Shown in pieces: positions 1,137 through 15,262 of a DNA stretch of 40,783 nt. The stretch spans positions 1-40,783 of the forward strand of contig CADBNN010000103.1 in NCBI GenBank assembly GCA_902796075.1. The letters run 5' to 3'. Made by a program: the position numbers and the translations under genes. The stretch's first letter is position 1; each line of letters starts with the position of its first letter. The stretch is from Oscillospiraceae bacterium. GTDB taxonomy: Bacteria > Bacillota > Clostridia > Oscillospirales > Acutalibacteraceae. The notes under the pieces were generated by a model that did no database searches, had not been told where the DNA came from, and saw only the letters and a list, made by a program, of their open reading frames with translations.

Positions 1137-1258
1137 CCAAACAACAACTGCAGGACGAGATCATGTCTCACGTCCGCCACGGTTTCTGTCGCACCTGTGG
1201 CGGCGAGGTAGTGTTCGAAGGTACGCCTGAACAGATCATCGGCTGTAAGGGATTCTAA
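1124..1258 (+). pseudogene. 3' fragment of a zinc-ribbon protein gene
   Basis: A frame open from 1124 to the TAA at 1256-1258 overlaps the end of the XRE gene. It reads TKQQLQDEIMSHVRHGFCRTC, then GGEVVFEGTPEQIIGCKGF. The first internal ATG is at 1163 and has no ribosome-binding site. CRTC and a lone Cys near the end suggest half of a zinc ribbon. The sequence looks protein-like, but there is no upstream start signal. I read it as the surviving 3' end of a longer gene joined to the XRE gene by a deletion. I do not recognise the parent family. Confidence 0.4.
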
Positions 1259-1288
1259 AACCGGAAGATATCTGAAAGAAATGATATA

Positions 1289-1320: not shown

Positions 1321-1365
1321 GTATCATTATGGCGTTTTTAATAAGGTTTACGTATCATTATGGCG
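1321..1365. repeat. Two identical 14-base direct repeats carrying TATCATTATGG
   Basis: GTATCATTATGGCG occurs at 1321-1334 and again at 1352-1365, 31 bases apart (about three helical turns). The core TATCATTATGG recurs exactly at 5628-5638, over the -10 of the dockerin metallophosphoesterase promoter. It resembles the TATCA/TGATA half-sites at the xylB and repressor promoters. This may be an upstream binding site for the regulator at 4429. Confidence 0.45.
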
Positions 1366-1381
1366 CTCTTATACATGAAAG

Positions 1382-1416
1382 AAACGTCTTTTGTCTTCCG
1401 ACAAAAGACGTTTTTT
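1382..1416 (+). terminator. Strong intrinsic terminator
   Basis: A 14-base-pair perfect stem (1382-1395 with 1400-1413), loop TTCC and a following T-run. It insulates the AT-rich left block from the xylose genes. Confidence 0.85.
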
Positions 1417-1478
1417 CGTTATATTCGGCTTACGCCGCGTTTTATTGCGCGGCAAGGTCGGCAGACGGAAACCGTCCC

Positions 1479-4428: not shown

Positions 4429-5544
4429 ATGAGCCACCCGGCGCCTGCTTTGTACAAAACCATTTATGAAAACATCAAAACCCGCATTTTGACCGGCGAA
4501 TTGGCCGAAAACAGCCGCCTGCCTACCGAAGCGGAACTCATGACCCAATACGGCGTGAGCCGCATTACCGCCAAACGGGCGCTGGACGAATTGCAAAACG
4601 ACGGGCTCATCCGCCGCCAGCGGGGCAGCGGCAGTTATGTTAACGCACCCCAAACCGGCGGGGACGATCGCTCCCGGCGCCGCATCGGTCTGCTGCTGCC
4701 CTCCCCCGCCTGGGATACGATTTCCCACATGGGCATATTGCAGGGCGCCACCGATTACGCCCTGCGCCACAACGGCCGGCTGGTGCTGTTCCATTCCAAC
4801 CGCAGCGAGCAGGCCGAACAACAGCTGCTGATGCAGGCCTGGACCGACGGCTGCGACGGGGTGCTGTATTACCCCGGGCCGGTGGAAACCGGGCGGGATA
4901 TTTTGCTGCGCATGGCGGCCTACCGCTACCCGGTGGTGATGCTGGACAAAACCATGGACGGCGTGCCCGTTTCCACCGTGGTGAGCGATAACGCGGGCGG
5001 CGCCCGGGCCTTGGGCGACCATTTGCTGGGCCGCGGCTGCCGGCATATTTTATATCTGTCCTCCGGGCCGGACCTGGGCGCCACCATCGGCGACCGGTAT
5101 TTGGGCCTTTGCCGGGCAGTGGCGGCGGCGGGTCTGCCGGCCGATACGGTGCGCACAGCCGGTTTGTTTGCCGATAAGCAGGACCTGTTTGCCAACGTGG
5201 AAAACTATGACGAAGTGGCCATTCGCCGCCTGACCGACCGTCTGCCCGTCTGGTTGGCTCAAGGCGTGGACGCCATATTTGCGCTCAACGACAATCTGGC
5301 CGCCCAAATCACGGTGGCCGCCAAAGCGGCCGGTTTGTCTATCCCCGGCGATTTTGCCCTCGCCGGGTTTGACGACGCGACTTACGCGCCCTATACCGCC
5401 CCGCCCCTCACCACCGTGCGGCAGGATTTTTACGCTATGGGTCACCGGGCGGCCCGGCAGGTGCTGCGGCAAATCGAAAACCCGGAAACCCCCGTTGACC
5501 ACGCTGTCATCCCCGCCGCGCTGGTGGTGCGGGAATCCGCTTGA
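4429..5544 (+). CDS. GntR-type DNA-binding domain fused to LacI-type sugar-binding domain
   Basis: This is a 371-residue regulator. Residues ~5-72 are a GntR-family winged helix: YENIKTRILTGELAENSRLP, followed by MTQYGVSRITAKRALDEL and the GSGSYV wing. Residues ~80-371 are a LacI/periplasmic-binding-protein-like effector domain, with RIGLLLPSP at its start, ALNDNLAAQI, FALAGFDD and the PPLTTVRQDFYAMG end. This architecture is that of AraR-type repressors of pentose use in Firmicutes, in which sugar binding releases DNA. Position after xylBA suggests it senses xylose, xylulose or a related pentose. Start ATG 4429 follows GAAAGGGG. The palindrome at 4396-4409 implies autoregulation, and a terminator follows. 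Confidence 0.9.
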   Translation: MSHPAPALYKTIYENIKTRILTGELAENSRLPTEAELMTQYGVSRITAKRALDELQNDGLIRRQRGSGSYVNAPQTGGDDRSRRRIGLLLPSPAWDTISHMGILQGATDYALRHNGRLVLFHSNRSEQAEQQLLMQAWTDGCDGVLYYPGPVETGRDILLRMAAYRYPVVMLDKTMDGVPVSTVVSDNAGGARALGDHLLGRGCRHILYLSSGPDLGATIGDRYLGLCRAVAAAGLPADTVRTAGLFADKQDLFANVENYDEVAIRRLTDRLPVWLAQGVDAIFALNDNLAAQITVAAKAAGLSIPGDFALAGFDDATYAPYTAPPLTTVRQDFYAMGHRAARQVLRQIENPETPVDHAVIPAALVVRESA

Positions 5545-5556
5545 ACCCGCTCTTTC

Positions 5557-5593
5557 AACGCCCCGTGTTATCCCGACACGCGGGCGTTTTTTT
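5557..5593 (+). terminator. Intrinsic terminator after the repressor gene
   Basis: AACGCCC/GGGCGTT plus GTGT/ACAC form a nearly continuous stem (5557-5568 with 5576-5588, one bulge), followed by seven T. Confidence 0.85.
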
Positions 5594-5604
5594 GGCAAAA
5601 GCCC

Positions 5605-5643
5605 TTGACAAACCGGCTAACTTGACATATCATTATGGTATCA
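5605..5643 (+). promoter_or_regulatory. Promoter of the dockerin metallophosphoesterase with overlapping operator-like repeat
   Basis: TTGACA (5605-5610), a 17-base spacer, TATCAT (5628-5633). TATCATTATGGTATCA (5628-5643) begins on the -10 and contains both the 11-mer shared with 1322 and 1353 and the 10-mer shared with the xylB promoter. A bound repressor would cover the -10 and start point. Confidence 0.65.
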
Positions 5644-5684
5644 ACTCCGTTATTTGGTATGTCAAAAAAGAAAGAGGTTACGTT

Positions 5685-8600
5685 ATGAAACGATGGATCC
5701 CGTTATTGCTGGTTTTGTTGCTGGCGCTGGGCCAACTGGCTGTGCCGGCCGCCGCGGAGCCGGAGCCGGTCAACATTTCCTTCCGCACCATGGACACCAC
5801 CGCCGGTGTGAACGGCGACGGCGACAAAACCACCGACGCGCGCCGTACCGAAGGCGCCGCATCGGTGAAGTGGCAATATGCAGCCGCTTCCGGCGACGTT
5901 CCCTGGTATTATGTGTACTGCGATAATTTTGGAGCCAGCGAAGGTGTGGACATTGCCGGCGCCACCCATATGATCTTCGATCTGTATGTGAGCAATATCG
6001 CATACCTGACCTTCACTTCCGGCGACGCGGGCATCAATCTTTCCGACAACAGCGGCGGCTGGAACAACAACGGCGGCCGGGTGTGGAAAGACGAATGGCT
6101 TTCTGTGCTGCAAAGCCTGAAAAGCGGCTGGAACCACGTGGTGCTGCCCATCGATTTTACCGATGCCACCGGTTCTAAAGTGTGGGCGTTTCGGGCTTAC
6201 AACACCAGCGGCAACGCCCCCGCCGGCTTTTATACCATGATGGACGACGTGCGTTTTGTGAACGAAGCCTATTTGAACAGCGAGGATTACGCCGACACGC
6301 TGGCGGCCAAAGACGTGATAGCCGCCATCAGTGAAGTTACGGCCGACACGTCGGCCGAAGCAGTGCAGCAGGTCCGGGCCCGGTATGAAGCCCTCACCCC
6401 CGCCCAAAAGGAAAAAGTGACCAACGCCGCCGATCTGGACCGGATCGAAAACCTGCCGGCGGTGAATTTGCTGTGGCACGCCTGCGAAGACGGCAATTCG
6501 TGGGACACCGAAAAATCTCACGGCTCCCTTTCTTTGTGGAACCAGTCGGCGGTGGGCGACAACTGCGTGCGCATCAACTGCACCGACGAAATGTTCTTTT
6601 TCTCCATTTGCCCCTTCGGGCCCCAGGATTTTACCTATGTTACCACGGTGGATTTTTGGTTTTATACCAATGATGAAAACATTTTTCAACACGGCGACTG
6701 CGGTTTTCAGCTTTCTTACACCAACGCCTGGCACAGCGGCGGCGTAGGCATTCCCCGCACGGTGCTGCGCGCCCTCACCCTGCAAAAGGGCTGGAACCAC
6801 CTGGTGCTGCCGTTGGACTTTTCGGCCATGACGGCTGACTGCGACCTGACCAAGATTCAGCGCTTCCGCTTTTTCTCGGTGGGGCTGGAAGCGGACAAAC
6901 AGTATGAACTGGCTATGGACGAGATCCGCTTTGCCAACCGCAAAGGCATTGAAAACGCCGAATATGTGATCGCCGGTCAGGTGGAGGACGCCATAAACGC
7001 CATCGGCACCGTGAACACCTACAGCGGCCCGGCCATTGAAGCCGCCCGCACCGCTTACGACGCTTTGACCGACGCCCGCAAGGCGCTGGTTACCAACTAC
7101 GCCGTGCTGCAAGCGGCGGAGGCCGCCTTCGAATCCTTACAAGATCAAACGACCGTCACCCTGCCGGACGACATGAAACAAAAACCCGCCCTGCCTGCGG
7201 AATCCAAAGTGTGGACCCTTTCGCATTGCGATGAGGAATCGCCTGTTTCGGCCGGCGGCTGTGTGTTGAAAAACGTGGTTTCGGTAGAAGGGGAATCCTT
7301 CACCGCCATGCAGGCCCAGGCCGTCAGCAATCCCATTCAGCTCATCGTGAAAGACTCGCTTATGCTGGATCCGGTTGCGGTGGAAGGCTATGCGGCCGAA
7401 GACCTGGCGCTGAAAATGCAGTTGTATATTTCCAACACCAAGGCTTTGAAACTGAGCGACGGCCAGATCGAGATCACCTCCTCCGGCCGGGCGGACGACC
7501 AGGAACTGCACTGGATGCTGGCCGACGTGCCCCTGCAAAACGGCTGGAACAACGTGTATCTGGAACTGCGCAACGCCGTGCCGGACAAGGGCGAATTGGA
7601 CCTGAGCAATATTTTGTTTTTCCGGCTGTACGGCTTTTTGAACCAGGACGTGGTGCTGGCGGTGGATGAGATCCGCCTGACCCCCCGCACCATGCCGGAA
7701 TTTAACGAAGATTTTGCCGATCAGGCGGCGCTGGCCAAGTGGCAAAGCGCAGCCGACCTTACCTGGGACCGGCAGGCCCTTTCCTTCACCGGCAGCGAAC
7801 CGGTGCAGGTGCAAACGGCGGCCTATGCGCTCAACATTCTGCAGCCCGACCGCACGCCCATTGAATTTACGCTCACCGCCGCGGATCCCGCCGCTCTTGC
7901 CGGCGTAACCGTGACCTTGACCGACAGCGCCGGCAAATCCGCCGCCCAAACCCTGACGCCCGGTTTTGACGCCGGCGGCAAAGCCTATTGCATGGCGGTG
8001 CCCGCCGATATGCAAGCCGACGCGGGCTTTAGCTTTGAAACCGCCGGCACCGTTACCTTCACCTTTGACCTGCGGGCTCAAACCACCCTGTGGCTGGACG
8101 ATATCACCACCAAAGTGCGGGCCGAAAAGTATTGGCGCGACTGGGTGTATGATGACACCGCGCAGCCCGGCGATTATTCCTTTGCGGTGATCCCCGACAT
8201 TCAGGAACTCACCGTAAACCACCCGGATATGCTCACCACCATTATGCAATGGATCGTAGACCACAAACAGTCTGAAAACATCCGTTACGCCATAGACGTG
8301 GGCGACGTGACCTGGAACGGCCACGCCGGCAGCACCCGGGAATTCGGCACGGCGGCCCGCGCGTTCAAAAAACTGCAGGACGCGGGCATTGAATATTCCA
8401 TCGCCTACGGCAATCACGACGTGCAGTCCGGCCGTGACACCACCCTGCTCAACCGCTATTTCCCCTTGTCTAACTACCAAACGTTTGCCTCCTACGGCGG
8501 CGTGAAAGAAGAAGGCAAGGTGGACAATATCTTCTTCCGCTTTTCGGTTTACGGCGTGCCCTATCTGGTGCTTTCGCTGGAATTTGATCCTGCCGCCGAT

Positions 8601-9416
8601 ACCCTCGCCTGGGCCAACCGTGTGGTGGCAGACCACCCGGACGATAACGTGATCATTTGCGTGCACGGCTATATGAGCATGGTGTACGGCGAACGGCTCA
8701 CCATCGGCAACACCATTTGGGAAAAGCTGGCCAGCCAGCACGACAATATCTTTATGGTGGTGTGCGGCCACGAATGTGTGGCGGCCGACCCCGGCTCCCT
8801 CAACTGGCGGGTAGACAAAGGCGTGAAGGGCAACACGGTGTATCAGGTCATGGCCAACGCCCAGGATATCGACGCGGAACGGGACGGCGTGGGCCTGCTG
8901 CTGATGCTGCGCTTTACCAACGGCGGACGCACCGTCAACTTCCATTACTTCTCCCCCTGCCACAACGATTTGGCCTTTAAGCGGGTCAATCAATTTTCCG
9001 TCACCCTGCCGGAAGGTCAGTTAAAAGCCGACCCGACCGCCTATGCGCCCGGCTTGGTGGCCGACGCGATCGACGCGCTCACCGGGGACGATCCCGCCGC
9101 CGTGGCCGCCGCCCGGGCCGCCTATGAAGCCCTTACCGACGAGCAAAAAGCCATGGTGCCCAACCTGGCCAAGCTGGAAGCGCTGGAAAACAAACCCGCG
9201 CCTTCGGTAGCCTATGGCGACGTGAACGGCGACGGCGCCGTTGACGCCAAGGACGCCCTGCTGGTATTGAAAGCCGCCGTGGGCAAAGCCACCCTCACCG
9301 CGGATCAGCACGTCCGGGCCGACGTGAACGGCGACAACGCCATTGACGCCAAGGACGCCCTGCTGATACTGAAAAAAGCGGTAATCAAACTGGACCGCTT
9401 CCCGGTTGAACAATAA
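5685..9416 (+). CDS. Secreted multidomain metallophosphoesterase with C-terminal type I dockerin
   Basis: The protein has 1243 residues. The start at 5685 (MKRWIPLLL) has AGAGG upstream and yields a clean signal peptide cleaved near residue 24 (AAA-E); an upstream in-frame extension is rejected. Three beta-rich modules resembling carbohydrate-binding domains (about residues 30-190, 255-425 and 500-670) alternate with Ala-rich three-helix repeats (YEALTPAQKEKV, YDALTDARKALV, YEALTDEQKAMV). The calcineurin-like phosphoesterase domain spans ~830-1100: PDIQ (837-840), GDV (873), GNHD (909-912), VHGY (993) and GHE (1028). The dockerin is at ~1177-1243, with two DVNGD calcium loops each followed by AIDAKDALL/AVDAKDALL. 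The first metal motif is D-x-Q rather than D-x-H. The substrate is unknown. A cohesin scaffold elsewhere is implied. Confidence 0.88.
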   Translation: MKRWIPLLLVLLLALGQLAVPAAAEPEPVNISFRTMDTTAGVNGDGDKTTDARRTEGAASVKWQYAAASGDVPWYYVYCDNFGASEGVDIAGATHMIFDLYVSNIAYLTFTSGDAGINLSDNSGGWNNNGGRVWKDEWLSVLQSLKSGWNHVVLPIDFTDATGSKVWAFRAYNTSGNAPAGFYTMMDDVRFVNEAYLNSEDYADTLAAKDVIAAISEVTADTSAEAVQQVRARYEALTPAQKEKVTNAADLDRIENLPAVNLLWHACEDGNSWDTEKSHGSLSLWNQSAVGDNCVRINCTDEMFFFSICPFGPQDFTYVTTVDFWFYTNDENIFQHGDCGFQLSYTNAWHSGGVGIPRTVLRALTLQKGWNHLVLPLDFSAMTADCDLTKIQRFRFFSVGLEADKQYELAMDEIRFANRKGIENAEYVIAGQVEDAINAIGTVNTYSGPAIEAARTAYDALTDARKALVTNYAVLQAAEAAFESLQDQTTVTLPDDMKQKPALPAESKVWTLSHCDEESPVSAGGCVLKNVVSVEGESFTAMQAQAVSNPIQLIVKDSLMLDPVAVEGYAAEDLALKMQLYISNTKALKLSDGQIEITSSGRADDQELHWMLADVPLQNGWNNVYLELRNAVPDKGELDLSNILFFRLYGFLNQDVVLAVDEIRLTPRTMPEFNEDFADQAALAKWQSAADLTWDRQALSFTGSEPVQVQTAAYALNILQPDRTPIEFTLTAADPAALAGVTVTLTDSAGKSAAQTLTPGFDAGGKAYCMAVPADMQADAGFSFETAGTVTFTFDLRAQTTLWLDDITTKVRAEKYWRDWVYDDTAQPGDYSFAVIPDIQELTVNHPDMLTTIMQWIVDHKQSENIRYAIDVGDVTWNGHAGSTREFGTAARAFKKLQDAGIEYSIAYGNHDVQSGRDTTLLNRYFPLSNYQTFASYGGVKEEGKVDNIFFRFSVYGVPYLVLSLEFDPAADTLAWANRVVADHPDDNVIICVHGYMSMVYGERLTIGNTIWEKLASQHDNIFMVVCGHECVAADPGSLNWRVDKGVKGNTVYQVMANAQDIDAERDGVGLLLMLRFTNGGRTVNFHYFSPCHNDLAFKRVNQFSVTLPEGQLKADPTAYAPGLVADAIDALTGDDPAAVAAARAAYEALTDEQKAMVPNLAKLEALENKPAPSVAYGDVNGDGAVDAKDALLVLKAAVGKATLTADQHVRADVNGDNAIDAKDALLILKKAVIKLDRFPVEQ

Positions 9417-10947: not shown

Positions 10948-12435
10948 TTATTTTTTGTGATAGAGTTTTTTGACCTGATACACCGGTTCCATGGTCAGGT
11001 CTATGCCCAGTTTTTGAAAGGTTTTTTGGTCTACCGCCGACAAAATGACCGACGAATGGACCTGGCACCCTTTGAGCTTATATAACTGCTGCATGGCCAC
11101 TTCGGCCGTGGGGTTGGTGGCGGCGCTTATGGTGAGCGCCAGCAAGATCTCATCGGTGTGCAGCCGGGGATTGTGGTTGCCCAAATGGTCCACCTTCAAA
11201 TGCTGAATGGGTTCGATGATAAAGGGCGAAAGCAGATGGATGCCGTCGTCTATTTTGCCCAGTTTTTTCAGGGCGTTGAGCAGCATGGCCGAAGAAGAGC
11301 CCAGCAGTTTGGAGGTTTTGCCGGTAACAATGGTGCCGTCGGGCAGTTCCATGGCGGCGGCGGGTTCCCCCGTTTCGGCCGCTTTTTGGTTGGCGGCGGC
11401 CACCACCGGCCGGTCGGCCACGGTCAGGCCGGCCTGCTTCATCAGCAGTTCCAGTTTGCGCACGGCTTCTTCAGTGCCGGTGCCGGTTTTGTGGGCCAGC
11501 AGGCCGTTATAATAGCGGCGAATGATCTCGTCCCGGGCGGCGGCCCGCACGGCTTCATCGTCCACAATGCAGTTGCCCGCCATGTTCACGCCCATATCGG
11601 TGGGCGAACGGTAGGGCGAAACGCCCAAAATCTTTTCCAGCATGGCGTTTACCACCGGAAAGATCTCCACGTCCCGGTTATAGTTCACGGCGGTGGTGCC
11701 GTAGGCTTCCAGATGGAAGGGGTCGATCATGTTCACGTCGTTCAAATCGGCGGTAGCGGCTTCGTAGGCAATGTTCACCGGGTGTTTCAGGGGCAGGTTC
11801 CAGATGGGGAAGGTTTCAAACTTGGCGTAACCGGCCGGCACGCCCCGCTTGTAATCATGGTATAACTGGGAAAGGCAGGTGGCCATTTTGCCGCTGCCCG
11901 GGCCGGGCGCGGTCACCACGATCAGTTCGCGGCTGGTTTCAATGTATTCGTTTTTGCCGTAGCCTTCGTCGCTTACGATAAAATCCACGTTAGAGGGGTA
12001 GCCGGGGATCACGTAATGGCGATATACCTTCACGCCCAGTTTTTCCAGCCGCTGTTGAAAGCTTTCGGCCGCCGGCTGATGGGCAAAGCAAGTGAGCACC
12101 ACGCTGCCCACAAACAAGCCGATGCCACGGAAGGCGTCGATCAGCCGCAGCACGTCTTCATCGTAGGTAATGCCCAGATCGCCCCGCACCTTGTTTTTTT
12201 CAATGGCGGTGGAATTGATCACAATCACGATCTCTGCCTGATCCTTCATTTGCAGCAGCATTTGCAGTTTGCTGTCGGGCTGAAAACCGGGCAGCACGCG
12301 GGACGCGTGATAATCGTCAAACAGCTTGCCACCGAATTCCAAATACAACTTGCCGCCGAATTGGGCAATACGCTCCCGAATGTGCTGGGATTGCGTTTGC
12401 AGATACCGTTCGTTGTCAAATCCGATCTTTCTCAT
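10948..12435 (-). CDS. DUF1846 family protein
   Basis: This 495-residue cytoplasmic protein has the start MRKIGFDNERYLQTQS and the internal segments YLEFGGKLFDDYHASRVLPG and APGPGSGKMATCLSQLYHDY that identify the DUF1846 family, common in Firmicutes and gut anaerobes. The Gly-rich GPGSGKMAT resembles a nucleotide-binding loop, but the family's reaction is not established. MSGSS-like segments are absent and no membrane segments are present. The promoter at 12459-12487 and the GGGGGG-containing ribosome-binding site upstream of 12435 show that it begins a transcript. It is not obviously linked in function to the MATE exporter that follows. Confidence 0.9.
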   Translation of the reverse strand: MRKIGFDNERYLQTQSQHIRERIAQFGGKLYLEFGGKLFDDYHASRVLPGFQPDSKLQMLLQMKDQAEIVIVINSTAIEKNKVRGDLGITYDEDVLRLIDAFRGIGLFVGSVVLTCFAHQPAAESFQQRLEKLGVKVYRHYVIPGYPSNVDFIVSDEGYGKNEYIETSRELIVVTAPGPGSGKMATCLSQLYHDYKRGVPAGYAKFETFPIWNLPLKHPVNIAYEAATADLNDVNMIDPFHLEAYGTTAVNYNRDVEIFPVVNAMLEKILGVSPYRSPTDMGVNMAGNCIVDDEAVRAAARDEIIRRYYNGLLAHKTGTGTEEAVRKLELLMKQAGLTVADRPVVAAANQKAAETGEPAAAMELPDGTIVTGKTSKLLGSSSAMLLNALKKLGKIDDGIHLLSPFIIEPIQHLKVDHLGNHNPRLHTDEILLALTISAATNPTAEVAMQQLYKLKGCQVHSSVILSAVDQKTFQKLGIDLTMEPVYQVKKLYHKK

Positions 12436-12554: not shown

Positions 12555-12590
12555 AAGAAGATAGCTGAGTTAAAACTCAGCTATCTTCTT
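12555..12590 (-). terminator. Long hairpin directly after the zinc-ribbon gene stop codon
   Basis: A 15-base-pair perfect stem (12555-12569 with 12576-12590) with loop TTAAAA, starting five bases past the stop codon at 12595. It is flanked by short A/T-rich tracts and probably acts as terminator or 3' stabiliser together with the hairpin at 12522. Confidence 0.75.
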
Positions 12591-12594
12591 CTCT

Positions 12595-12843
12595 TTACAA
12601 GTTCCATGTGTAACCACATTGTTGACAGATGCACACGGTTTTTTGCTTGTTAATTGCTTTTTGCTTTTTTCTACCAAACACTTTGAATAATAAAGCAGGA
12701 AGTGTAAGAAACAACCATTTAAAAGGAATCCACCACCATCCAACGCAAAACCACCAAAAAAATCCATGATGCTTATTCTTAATTACGACTTCATTAACTA
12801 CTTGAACAGTTACGTTTTGACTTTGACATTTTGGACAATTCAT
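12595..12843 (-). CDS. Small zinc-ribbon membrane protein, function unknown
   Basis: The protein has 82 residues. The start is ATG at 12843, because AAGGG lies eight bases upstream; a GTG at 12852 overlaps that site. N-terminal CPKC and C-terminal CICQQC suggest one split zinc ribbon or two half-sites brought together. Between them is a Trp/Phe-rich stretch (GFFWWFCVGWWWIPFKWLF, then LTLPALLF) that should sit in the membrane. A basic loop (GRKKQKAINKQK) follows. Small proteins of this layout occur as hypotheticals in Firmicutes; no function is known to me. Base composition is far more AT-rich than the neighbours. Expression appears controlled by the structured leader at 12862-13031. Confidence 0.8.
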   Translation of the reverse strand: MNCPKCQSQNVTVQVVNEVVIKNKHHGFFWWFCVGWWWIPFKWLFLTLPALLFKVFGRKKQKAINKQKTVCICQQCGYTWNL

Positions 12844-12860
12844 TCTTTTCACCCTTCAAT

Positions 12861-12889
12861 AAAAAATGCGCACAGTTAGAACCGTGCGC
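12861..12889 (-). terminator. Leader terminator (attenuator) upstream of the zinc-ribbon gene
   Basis: On the minus strand GCGCAC and GTGCGC pair (12884-12889 with 12868-12873) and are followed by ATTTTTTATT. It lies 18 bases before the gene's start codon, between the promoter and the ribosome-binding site, the place for conditional termination. Confidence 0.75.
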
Positions 12890-13031
12890 CAAAAACGCAG
12901 CTCTAACTGTCGCCAAACATGTCACATATACGCAAAATTACGATATGCTTATAAGAGCATGCATTTTTATCAAAAGATAAAAATAGCATGTCGTAAATAA
13001 TGCGTTAGTATTTACTTGTGACACATTTGGC
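12862..13031 (-). ncRNA. Structured ~170-nt leader RNA with terminator/antiterminator switch
   Basis: The transcript predicted from the promoter at 13038-13066 starts at about 13031, exactly at the first base of a long rod. Closing stem: 13017-13031 with 12912-12926 (13 of 15 positions matching). Second stem: 12991-12996 and 13001-13005 with 12938-12943 and 12930-12934. Apical stem: 12976-12984 and 12986-12990 with 12963-12971 and 12958-12962, one bulged base, AAAA loop. After the rod, ACAGTTAGA (12910-12902) can pair with TCTAACTGT (12880-12872), and TGCG (12899-12896) with CGCA (12888-12885), which breaks the terminator. This is the layout of a cis-acting attenuator or riboswitch. It could alternatively be an independent small RNA ending at the terminator. 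I recognise no known class. Confidence 0.6.
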
Positions 13032-13037
13032 ACTTAC

Positions 13038-13066
13038 ATTGTATCATTTTTCAATGCTCCAGTCAA
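13038..13066 (-). promoter_or_regulatory. Sigma-A promoter of the leader RNA and zinc-ribbon gene
   Basis: On the minus strand TTGACT (13066-13061), a 17-base spacer, TACAAT (13043-13038). Seven bases further is 13031, where the leader's closing stem begins. Confidence 0.8.
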
Positions 13067-13195: not shown

Positions 13196-15232
13196 TCAAG
13201 GCTCGGTGGGGGTGACGGCAGGGGGCGCGTCGTCGGCAGGAAAACGGTTGATCTTGCCCACCGCAAAGCGCAGGATCAGCAAGGCGTCCCGGGCGTCTAC
13301 CCGGCCGTCGGCATTGCCGTCCGCCACAGGCTTGTCTTCGTCGGCCAGGGCCAGTTTGCCCACCGCCGCCTGCAAAACCAGCAGGGCGTCCCGGGCGTCC
13401 ACCCGGCCGTCGTCGTTCACGTCGCCGGTGGGCCGCACCCAACGGATCTCATACGGGCCGAAACGGTGAATGGTGACCGAAACGTAGTCTACGCCGTCGG
13501 CCGACCACACGCTGCTTTTGGGCAAAGCGCGGCCGGTTTCCGTGTCGATAAAATGCACCCGGCCCACCGGCTCGTCCACCGTGAGCGCCAGCCGCAACGT
13601 GACCGGGCCGGGCAACGCCACCGGCCGGCCGGCTTCATCCGTATACGTCACGGTAACGGCCATGCGCTGTTGGGTCGGCTGGCCGCAGGTCACCTGCAAA
13701 CGACCGGCCGGCAAGGGCGTTGCGTCACCCGGCAAAATCAGGCAGGCGCCGCTGTCCGGGTCGGTTATCACCTGTTCCAGCGGTTCAAAAGCCAGGCCGT
13801 TGGCCCGGGCGTACCGTTCGGCGTTTTGGTCCGCGTGGCCCCGCAACACCGGATGCACGGCGGCGGTTTGGCCGCCAAACGCCCCTTCGCCCACCGCGGG
13901 ATCGCCCAACACGGTGACCGTTTTTAGGGCAACGCAATCGGCAAAGGCGTTGTTTTCTACCTGCACAACGCCGGCCGGCAGGGTGATTTGGTCAAACCCG
14001 CACCCGCGAAAAGCCCCCGCGCCAATGGCGGTGAGGGCGGTCATGTCAAAATCCGTCAGCGCGCCGCACCCGGCGAAGGCTTCGGCCGCCGCTTCGCACA
14101 ACCGGGGCGCGGTCACCGCCTGCAAGCCGGTGCAGGCCGAAAAAGCACCCCGGTCTACAAACTGCACGTTGGCCAGGTCCATGTGTTCAAGCCCGGTGCA
14201 GCCGGCAAAGGCATACGCCCCCAGGCTGTTGACCGTGAGGGGCAGCGTAACGGTTTCCAGCGCCCGGCAGCCCGAAAACGCGTAGTCTCCCACGCCGGCG
14301 AGCCCGGCGGACAAGGTGACCGAACGCAGGCTTGCACACCCGGCAAAAAACCGGTCGGGCAGGTCGAACATGGGCGGCAATTCCATTGCCTGCAGAGCGG
14401 TGCAGCCGGCAAATACGCCGGCGTTCCACACCGTTTGCCCCGTTTGGGGCAAGGTGACGGCGGCAAGCCCCGCGCAGCCGGCAAAAGCGTTTTCGCCCAC
14501 CGACACGGCGCCGGTCAGGTCTACCGTTTGCAAATTGTCCCGCTCGGCAAAGGCGGCGGGACCCACGGCGGTAACGCTCGCCGGCAGGGTGTAAGCGGCG
14601 GCGTCCGGGTCGGTAAAGGCCACCAGCGTTGCGCCGTCTTTGGTCAATACCACCCCGTTGCGGGCGGTAAAAAACTCATTTTGCGGGTCTACCCGCACCC
14701 GGTCCACACCCACAAGGGCGCCGCCCGACAAAGTGGCCAAATAGCGTGGCAAAATGAGCCCCGCCAGCCCCGTGCAGCCGGCAAACGCGCCGTCGCCAAT
14801 GGCGGCCAGCCCGGCGGGCAGCGGCATATCGGTCAAGGCGGCGTTATGGGCAAACGCCCGCTCTTGCACGGCGGTCAACGACCGGGGCAGCGATACCGTC
14901 TGCAAAGCGGCGCAGTCGGCAAAAGCTTCGGCCTGCAGGGTGGTAAGGCCCTCGGGCAGGGTGACGGTTTGCAGGTTTTCGCAGCCGCGAAAAGCCCCGT
15001 AACCGATGGCGGTAACGGGATAGCCTTCTATCAGCGCAGGCACCGCAAGGTCATAAAGCTCCGCCGGCTGTTCACAGCCGGTAATGACCGCGCGCCCCAT
15101 GGTGAGGGTGTAGCACAAACCGTCGGCGGTGGTACCGGTGCGTTCGCCGGTGGCCGCGCCGGCAGGCAAACCGCCCCAGCACAGGGCCAGCAGCGCACAG
15201 CAAAGCACCGCGCACACCATCCGTTTTTTCAT
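13196..15232 (-). CDS. Secreted BspA-like leucine-rich repeat protein with type I dockerin
   Basis: The protein has 678 residues. ATG 15232 is chosen because GGAGGG lies six bases upstream and MKKRMVCAVLCCALLALC then starts a signal peptide ending near AGA (residue ~27). Residues ~60-440 are tandem BspA/LRR_5 repeats of about 22-24 residues (pattern GAFAGCTGLAxVTLPxxLxxI). A beta-rich region (~485-595) follows. The dockerin is at ~603-665, with two loops, GDVNDDGRVDARDALL and DGNADGRVDARDALL. A 13-residue Pro-rich tail ends the protein. LRR_5 proteins typically bind host or cell-surface ligands; the dockerin implies docking to a cohesin. It sits at the 3' end of a housekeeping run, after a lipoprotein gene 30 bases away. 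Confidence 0.9.
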   Translation of the reverse strand: MKKRMVCAVLCCALLALCWGGLPAGAATGERTGTTADGLCYTLTMGRAVITGCEQPAELYDLAVPALIEGYPVTAIGYGAFRGCENLQTVTLPEGLTTLQAEAFADCAALQTVSLPRSLTAVQERAFAHNAALTDMPLPAGLAAIGDGAFAGCTGLAGLILPRYLATLSGGALVGVDRVRVDPQNEFFTARNGVVLTKDGATLVAFTDPDAAAYTLPASVTAVGPAAFAERDNLQTVDLTGAVSVGENAFAGCAGLAAVTLPQTGQTVWNAGVFAGCTALQAMELPPMFDLPDRFFAGCASLRSVTLSAGLAGVGDYAFSGCRALETVTLPLTVNSLGAYAFAGCTGLEHMDLANVQFVDRGAFSACTGLQAVTAPRLCEAAAEAFAGCGALTDFDMTALTAIGAGAFRGCGFDQITLPAGVVQVENNAFADCVALKTVTVLGDPAVGEGAFGGQTAAVHPVLRGHADQNAERYARANGLAFEPLEQVITDPDSGACLILPGDATPLPAGRLQVTCGQPTQQRMAVTVTYTDEAGRPVALPGPVTLRLALTVDEPVGRVHFIDTETGRALPKSSVWSADGVDYVSVTIHRFGPYEIRWVRPTGDVNDDGRVDARDALLVLQAAVGKLALADEDKPVADGNADGRVDARDALLILRFAVGKINRFPADDAPPAVTPTEP

Positions 15233-15262
15233 AGCAAACCCTCCTGCGTTCACGGGGACCGT

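Follow-up and report, generated by a model that had tools for sequence, protein, structure and literature searches.

A putative riboswitch-type leader RNA found before genes for secreted and membrane proteins in one bacterial class

The window analysed here, a stretch of 40,783 nucleotides from an Oscillospiraceae bacterium, carries on its minus strand a leader RNA that precedes an ORF of 82 amino acids. Judged from sequence comparisons, this leader probably works in cis as a riboswitch-type transcription attenuator, belonging to an RNA family of a single bacterial class that has not been filed in the databases. These comparisons establish the homology of the copies, the position of the promoter, the stems and the location before genes, as well as (by covariation) the pseudoknot and the antiterminator; that the alternative pseudoknot and antiterminator states control termination in cells is what we infer from them. 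We propose the family as a candidate for a new riboswitch-like class: it has a conserved complex fold with covariation and, on sequence and energy, a mutually exclusive expression platform adjoining the gene.

Anatomy and alternative folds of the leader

The first-pass annotation, made from the letters of the window, had described a sigma-A promoter (TTGACT-N17-TACAAT) with its start on the first base of a structured rod, a terminator and an antiterminator with specified pairings, and then a ribosome-binding site and the 82-residue ORF. All of these lie where it had placed them (Table 1). The -10 element ends 6 nt upstream of the first nucleotide of P1, which puts the predicted +1 at G13031. 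The folding energy of the entire leader is -66.1 kcal/mol (z = -7.9), a value equalled by none of 200 shuffled sequences, and the terminator segment taken alone gives z = -5.2. The terminator and the antiterminator overlap and are mutually exclusive. What the annotation did not contain is the pseudoknot between GCUC and GAGC that we have found here. It had also drawn an alternate hairpin of five base pairs (12945-12949 with 12956-12960) as a further sign of switching; many copies among the relatives have a weaker form of this hairpin or none (GCAGGCUC forms), and its bases overlap the GCUC strand of the pseudoknot.

Table 1. Elements of the leader and its gene, in positions of the window
Element	Position	Strand	Remarks
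-35 element TTGACT	13061..13066	-	17-nt spacer to the -10
-10 element TACAAT	13038..13043	-	ends 6 nt before P1 nt 1
Leader RNA	12861-13031	-	5' of the 82-aa ORF
P1 5' arm GCCAAAUGUGUCACA	13017..13031	-	partner 12912-12926; covaries
J1/2 internal loop, 5' strand	13006..13016	-	conserved UNAAUA at 13009-13014
P2/P3 5' strand	12986..13005	-	partner 12930-12948; covaries in alignment
P4 apical hairpin UAUUUUUAUC-UUUU-GAUAAAAAU	12963..12985	-	nearly invariant
J4/3 strand	12949..12962	-	includes pseudoknot strand GCUC (12955-12958)
P3/P2 3' strand	12930..12948	-	pairs with P2/P3 5' strand
P1 3' arm UGUGACAUGUUUGGC	12912..12926	-	pairs with P1 5' arm; covaries
Conserved linker GACAGUUA and GAGC	12900..12911	-	GAGC at 12900-12903, choice strand for pseudoknot or antiterminator
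Pseudoknot GCUC/GAGC	12958-12955 with 12903-12900	-
Antiterminator hairpin	12872..12910	-	-19.6 kcal/mol
Intrinsic terminator	12861..12889	-	stem 12868-12889 (-15.2 kcal/mol), U-tract 12861-12866
Shine-Dalgarno-like GAAGGGUG	12850..12857	-
Regulated gene, 82-aa protein	12595..12843	-	two CxxC pairs, Trp-rich hydrophobic middle

The arrangement suggests the following switch. Transcription would start at the first base of P1 and the rod would then form P1, next the conserved internal loop, which is asymmetric, and then P2/P3 and P4, with the J4/3 strand remaining free. If the GCUC of J4/3 pairs with GAGC, the latter would become unavailable to the antiterminator, and the terminator would form and stop transcription before the gene; with the pseudoknot absent or opened, GAGC would join the antiterminator and the gene would be transcribed. 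By simple energies the antiterminator of the window is the more stable of the two hairpins (Table 1), so that transcription would read through by default if no pseudoknot held GAGC back. Because of this default, our guess is that a small molecule or ion stabilises the pseudoknot and so turns the gene off, an OFF switch being somewhat favoured over an ON switch. Averaged over the copies, the two hairpins have similar energies (-12.9 kcal/mol for the antiterminator and -13.7 kcal/mol for the terminator).

Transcription-terminating riboswitches with a pseudoknotted aptamer include those for preQ1, ZTP and fluoride. As in these systems, a choice between a pseudoknot and an alternative pairing would decide the fate of an intrinsic terminator, with the ribosome-binding site directly behind it. 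However, the sequence, the 120-nt rod and the invariant P4 of the leader match no Rfam family, and its start is fixed on P1.

Conservation among the copies

The promoter and the fold follow a single plan in 169 distinct copies. The spacer measures 17 nt in 141 of them, the distance from the end of the -10 to P1 is 6 nt in 143, and 156 have the TG of an extended -10. P1 occurs with 38 different 5' arms, and its seven outer pairs are all standard in 162/169 copies. The motif UNAAUA in the 5' strand of the internal loop (nt 10-32) is found in 110/169 copies, against 19 expected in shuffles, and the P4 hairpin (U5AUC/GRUAAAAA) is almost invariant. In J4/3 the copies share a strand RCUCU that forms the pseudoknot with GGAGY, just 3' of P1; the same GGAGY doubles as the 5' arm of the antiterminator, which excludes the terminator. 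In a few copies the terminator is broken, or an ORF is missing within 230 nt.

When 27 copies are aligned with MAFFT, 91.5% of the cells are paired and 21 pairs have changed on both sides, a result reached by 0/500 shuffles; sliding the pairs abolishes the covariation signal. The columns of the pseudoknot were misaligned there (49% paired), and we have therefore tested it separately, sequence by sequence. Its mean Watson-Crick helix is 4.20, compared to 3.60 +- 0.054 for permuted strands (maximum 3.78 in 1000 permutations), and in the 93 copies that do not have the common GCUC/GAGC pair it is 3.98 compared to 3.37 +- 0.079; the antiterminator helix gives 3.93 compared to 3.37 +- 0.073, with related copies counting more than once in all of these permutation tests. 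The pseudoknot strands vary together, as GACUC/GAGUC, GCUUC/GAAGC, CAAAUUCC/GGAGUUUG and GCUUUGGUU/AAUCAAGGC. The annotation had named compensatory changes as the check on its pairings, and such changes are now seen in the stems P1 and P2/P3, in the pseudoknot, and in both the terminator and the antiterminator. The resemblance of the J4/3 strand to the 5' half of the terminator is weak (3.46 versus 3.33 +- 0.051), and we have set it aside as evidence.

Several variations on this plan were observed. At L005, L008, L087, L091, L099, L111, L114 and L118 the RNA is of a longer subtype, whose rod contains one more hairpin in its 5' strand; the strands of the pseudoknot are here mostly of the AAUUCC/GGAGUU type. 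At L054, L050, L094, L127, L189, L206 and L225 two or three units stand in tandem, each with its own promoter, the gaps being mostly 44-100 nt with one of 180. In one genome (G025) the contigs C3, C9, C28 and C8 end 34-57 nt past an RNA copy (L100, L101, L103 and L104); the 40 nt downstream of these copies are nearly identical (GAAATTGTCAAGAGAAAGTATACAATAAAAAAGTGCATAATA), and it thus appears that a repeated sequence follows them.

Distribution, downstream genes and the nature of the signal

BLAST searches with the leader alone gave matches in 79/398 genomes of the family, before different genes. A covariance model (R1) built from the 27 aligned copies finds the RNA in 22/60 relatives and, with the best 11 candidates per genome scored, in 65/245 genomes of the class. 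In a sample of 249 genomes from across the phylum the window's own genome is the sole match (0/248 others), and this sample serves also as a negative control for the model. The copy number ranges up to 26 per genome, with one copy in the window's genome and 0-11 in its sister genomes; with the limit of 11 scored candidates per genome, counts from the large searches are lower bounds. Many of the copy-bearing genomes are fragmented into dozens of contigs each. The class is probably Clostridia, on the basis of class-level kinship and one named relative of the 82-aa protein, and we take genomes of this kind to be those of gut bacteria.

As the first-pass annotation had anticipated, the RNA falls into no known class. 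In Rfam 15 no family scores above threshold anywhere in the window, and none reaches E<=1 for the leaders of ten loci; the leader alone, in the covariance-model search that the annotation had suggested, gives only unrelated matches below threshold and none at the gathering score. A check of the open-access literature turned up no description of the leader; most motifs of a 2017 set of 224 candidates, which lay outside this check, should be in Rfam. The family is thus apparently both widespread and undescribed. Just upstream of the copy at L040 there are two sub-threshold matches to the Gut-1 RNA (RF01706), at 1215-1287 (+) and 1329-1417 (-).

An ORF of at least 40 amino acids with a Shine-Dalgarno sequence follows 137/169 copies, its start codon lying a median of 20 nt past the U-run. 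According to a simple hydrophobicity rule, 69% of the downstream proteins are membrane-bound or secreted, compared to 34% of the other ORFs at the same loci (p = 1e-10). They fall into 63 clusters, the largest with 47 members. The most frequent Pfam domain is the BspA-type LRR_5 (30/132 downstream proteins), followed by AbrB/MazE-like, copper-amine-oxidase N-terminal, SLH and CHAP domains. The regulon is mainly one of secreted and membrane proteins of accessory type, and its diversity yields no metabolic hint to the signal.

Tentatively, we suggest a new class of riboswitch that reads a signal not recognised so far (a gut metabolite or a second messenger, perhaps) and would set the surface-protein repertoire in many gut bacteria of one class, with 1-26 copies per genome. 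If the attenuator reading is right, the family would be an orphan regulatory RNA common in a large bacterial group that is poorly cultured, and would offer a direct handle on the control of BspA-type surface proteins, S-layer-type proteins and secreted hydrolases. With the pseudoknot, the antiterminator and the terminator now defined, the question of the ligand is testable on synthetic RNA.

The strongest competitor, which we hold to be rather unlikely, is that the RNA responds to a protein acting in trans, which would bind it to promote antitermination or termination, rather than to a ligand. The covariation would be the same, since the stems could equally serve a protein, and a large mixed regulon suits a global regulator. 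Nevertheless, no common RNA-binding protein was identified, and the pseudoknot and internal loops would seem to resemble a pocket. The processive antitermination elements of the LoaP or RfaH type likewise act in leaders, but LoaP exceeds the curated NF033641 cut-off in 0/60 relatives (22 of them carriers of the RNA), and the terminator here lies within the leader itself.

A free small RNA, near genes by chance, would also have its own promoter and terminator, and could account for the copies that are tandem or have no ORF; it is improbable given the many copies that stand so close before a translatable ORF, and an antiterminator would serve it no purpose. Numerous copies before surface-protein genes are typical of the c-di-GMP riboswitches of Clostridia, and both the copy number and the type of regulon recall them. 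We nevertheless give a variant of that class very little credence: Rfam has no match, and a GGDEF domain at E<=1e-10 is absent from 14/22 carrier genomes, one of which has 11 copies. A leader-peptide attenuator or a tRNA-controlled one (T-box) would likewise have a leader ahead of a terminator/antiterminator choice, but is hardly credible, with short frames having a Shine-Dalgarno and a start in only 50/169 leaders, no match to the T-box model in Rfam, and varied, mostly secreted or membrane genes downstream rather than mainly amino-acid genes. An integron attC-like site was considered as well; the order of the boxes and the promoter and ribosome-binding context do not appear to fit.

Carriage as phage or plasmid cargo was rejected, there being no blastn match in phages or plasmids. 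In IMG/VR a long pattern gave zero matches, and with a shorter one two contigs were found that carry a true element at their edge (L235:1-146 (-) and L236:12694-12839 (+)); another match there, L240, is not an element. A large serine recombinase is encoded near the copy in L236, so that copies may be carried by mobile elements.

The locus in the window

The first-pass annotation had seen the leader as the property of a gene for a zinc-ribbon membrane protein and had proposed to look for its stems among homologues of the 82-residue protein, where they are not conserved: the closest relatives (54-68% identity) have ordinary upstream regions, with the leader absent in covariance-model searches. 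The leader RNA outlives this result because it is common to unrelated genes. Zinc, which the annotation had offered as a possible ligand, finds no support. No zinc-uptake gene lies downstream of the copies, and the excess of CxxC proteins there (23/137 versus 8/216) comes in part from one AbrB-like group and one Cys-rich family. The annotation is thus partly supported, right in its observation and half right in its interpretation.

Family searches place the 82-aa protein in no clear family above the curated cut-off, and in four sister species there is no leader module upstream of the neighbouring gene (window 10948-12435). The segment here is AT-rich relative to its flanks (33-38% GC), and the module has the look of an acquisition. 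A hairpin, AAGATAGCTGAGTTTTAACTCAGCTATCTT, 3' of the ORF at 12555-12585 is probably the gene's terminator. The product of the upstream neighbour (13196-15253, minus strand) is itself a secreted repeat protein and ends in dockerin-like repeats; similar repeats occur in another large secreted protein, encoded at 5541-9416 on the plus strand.
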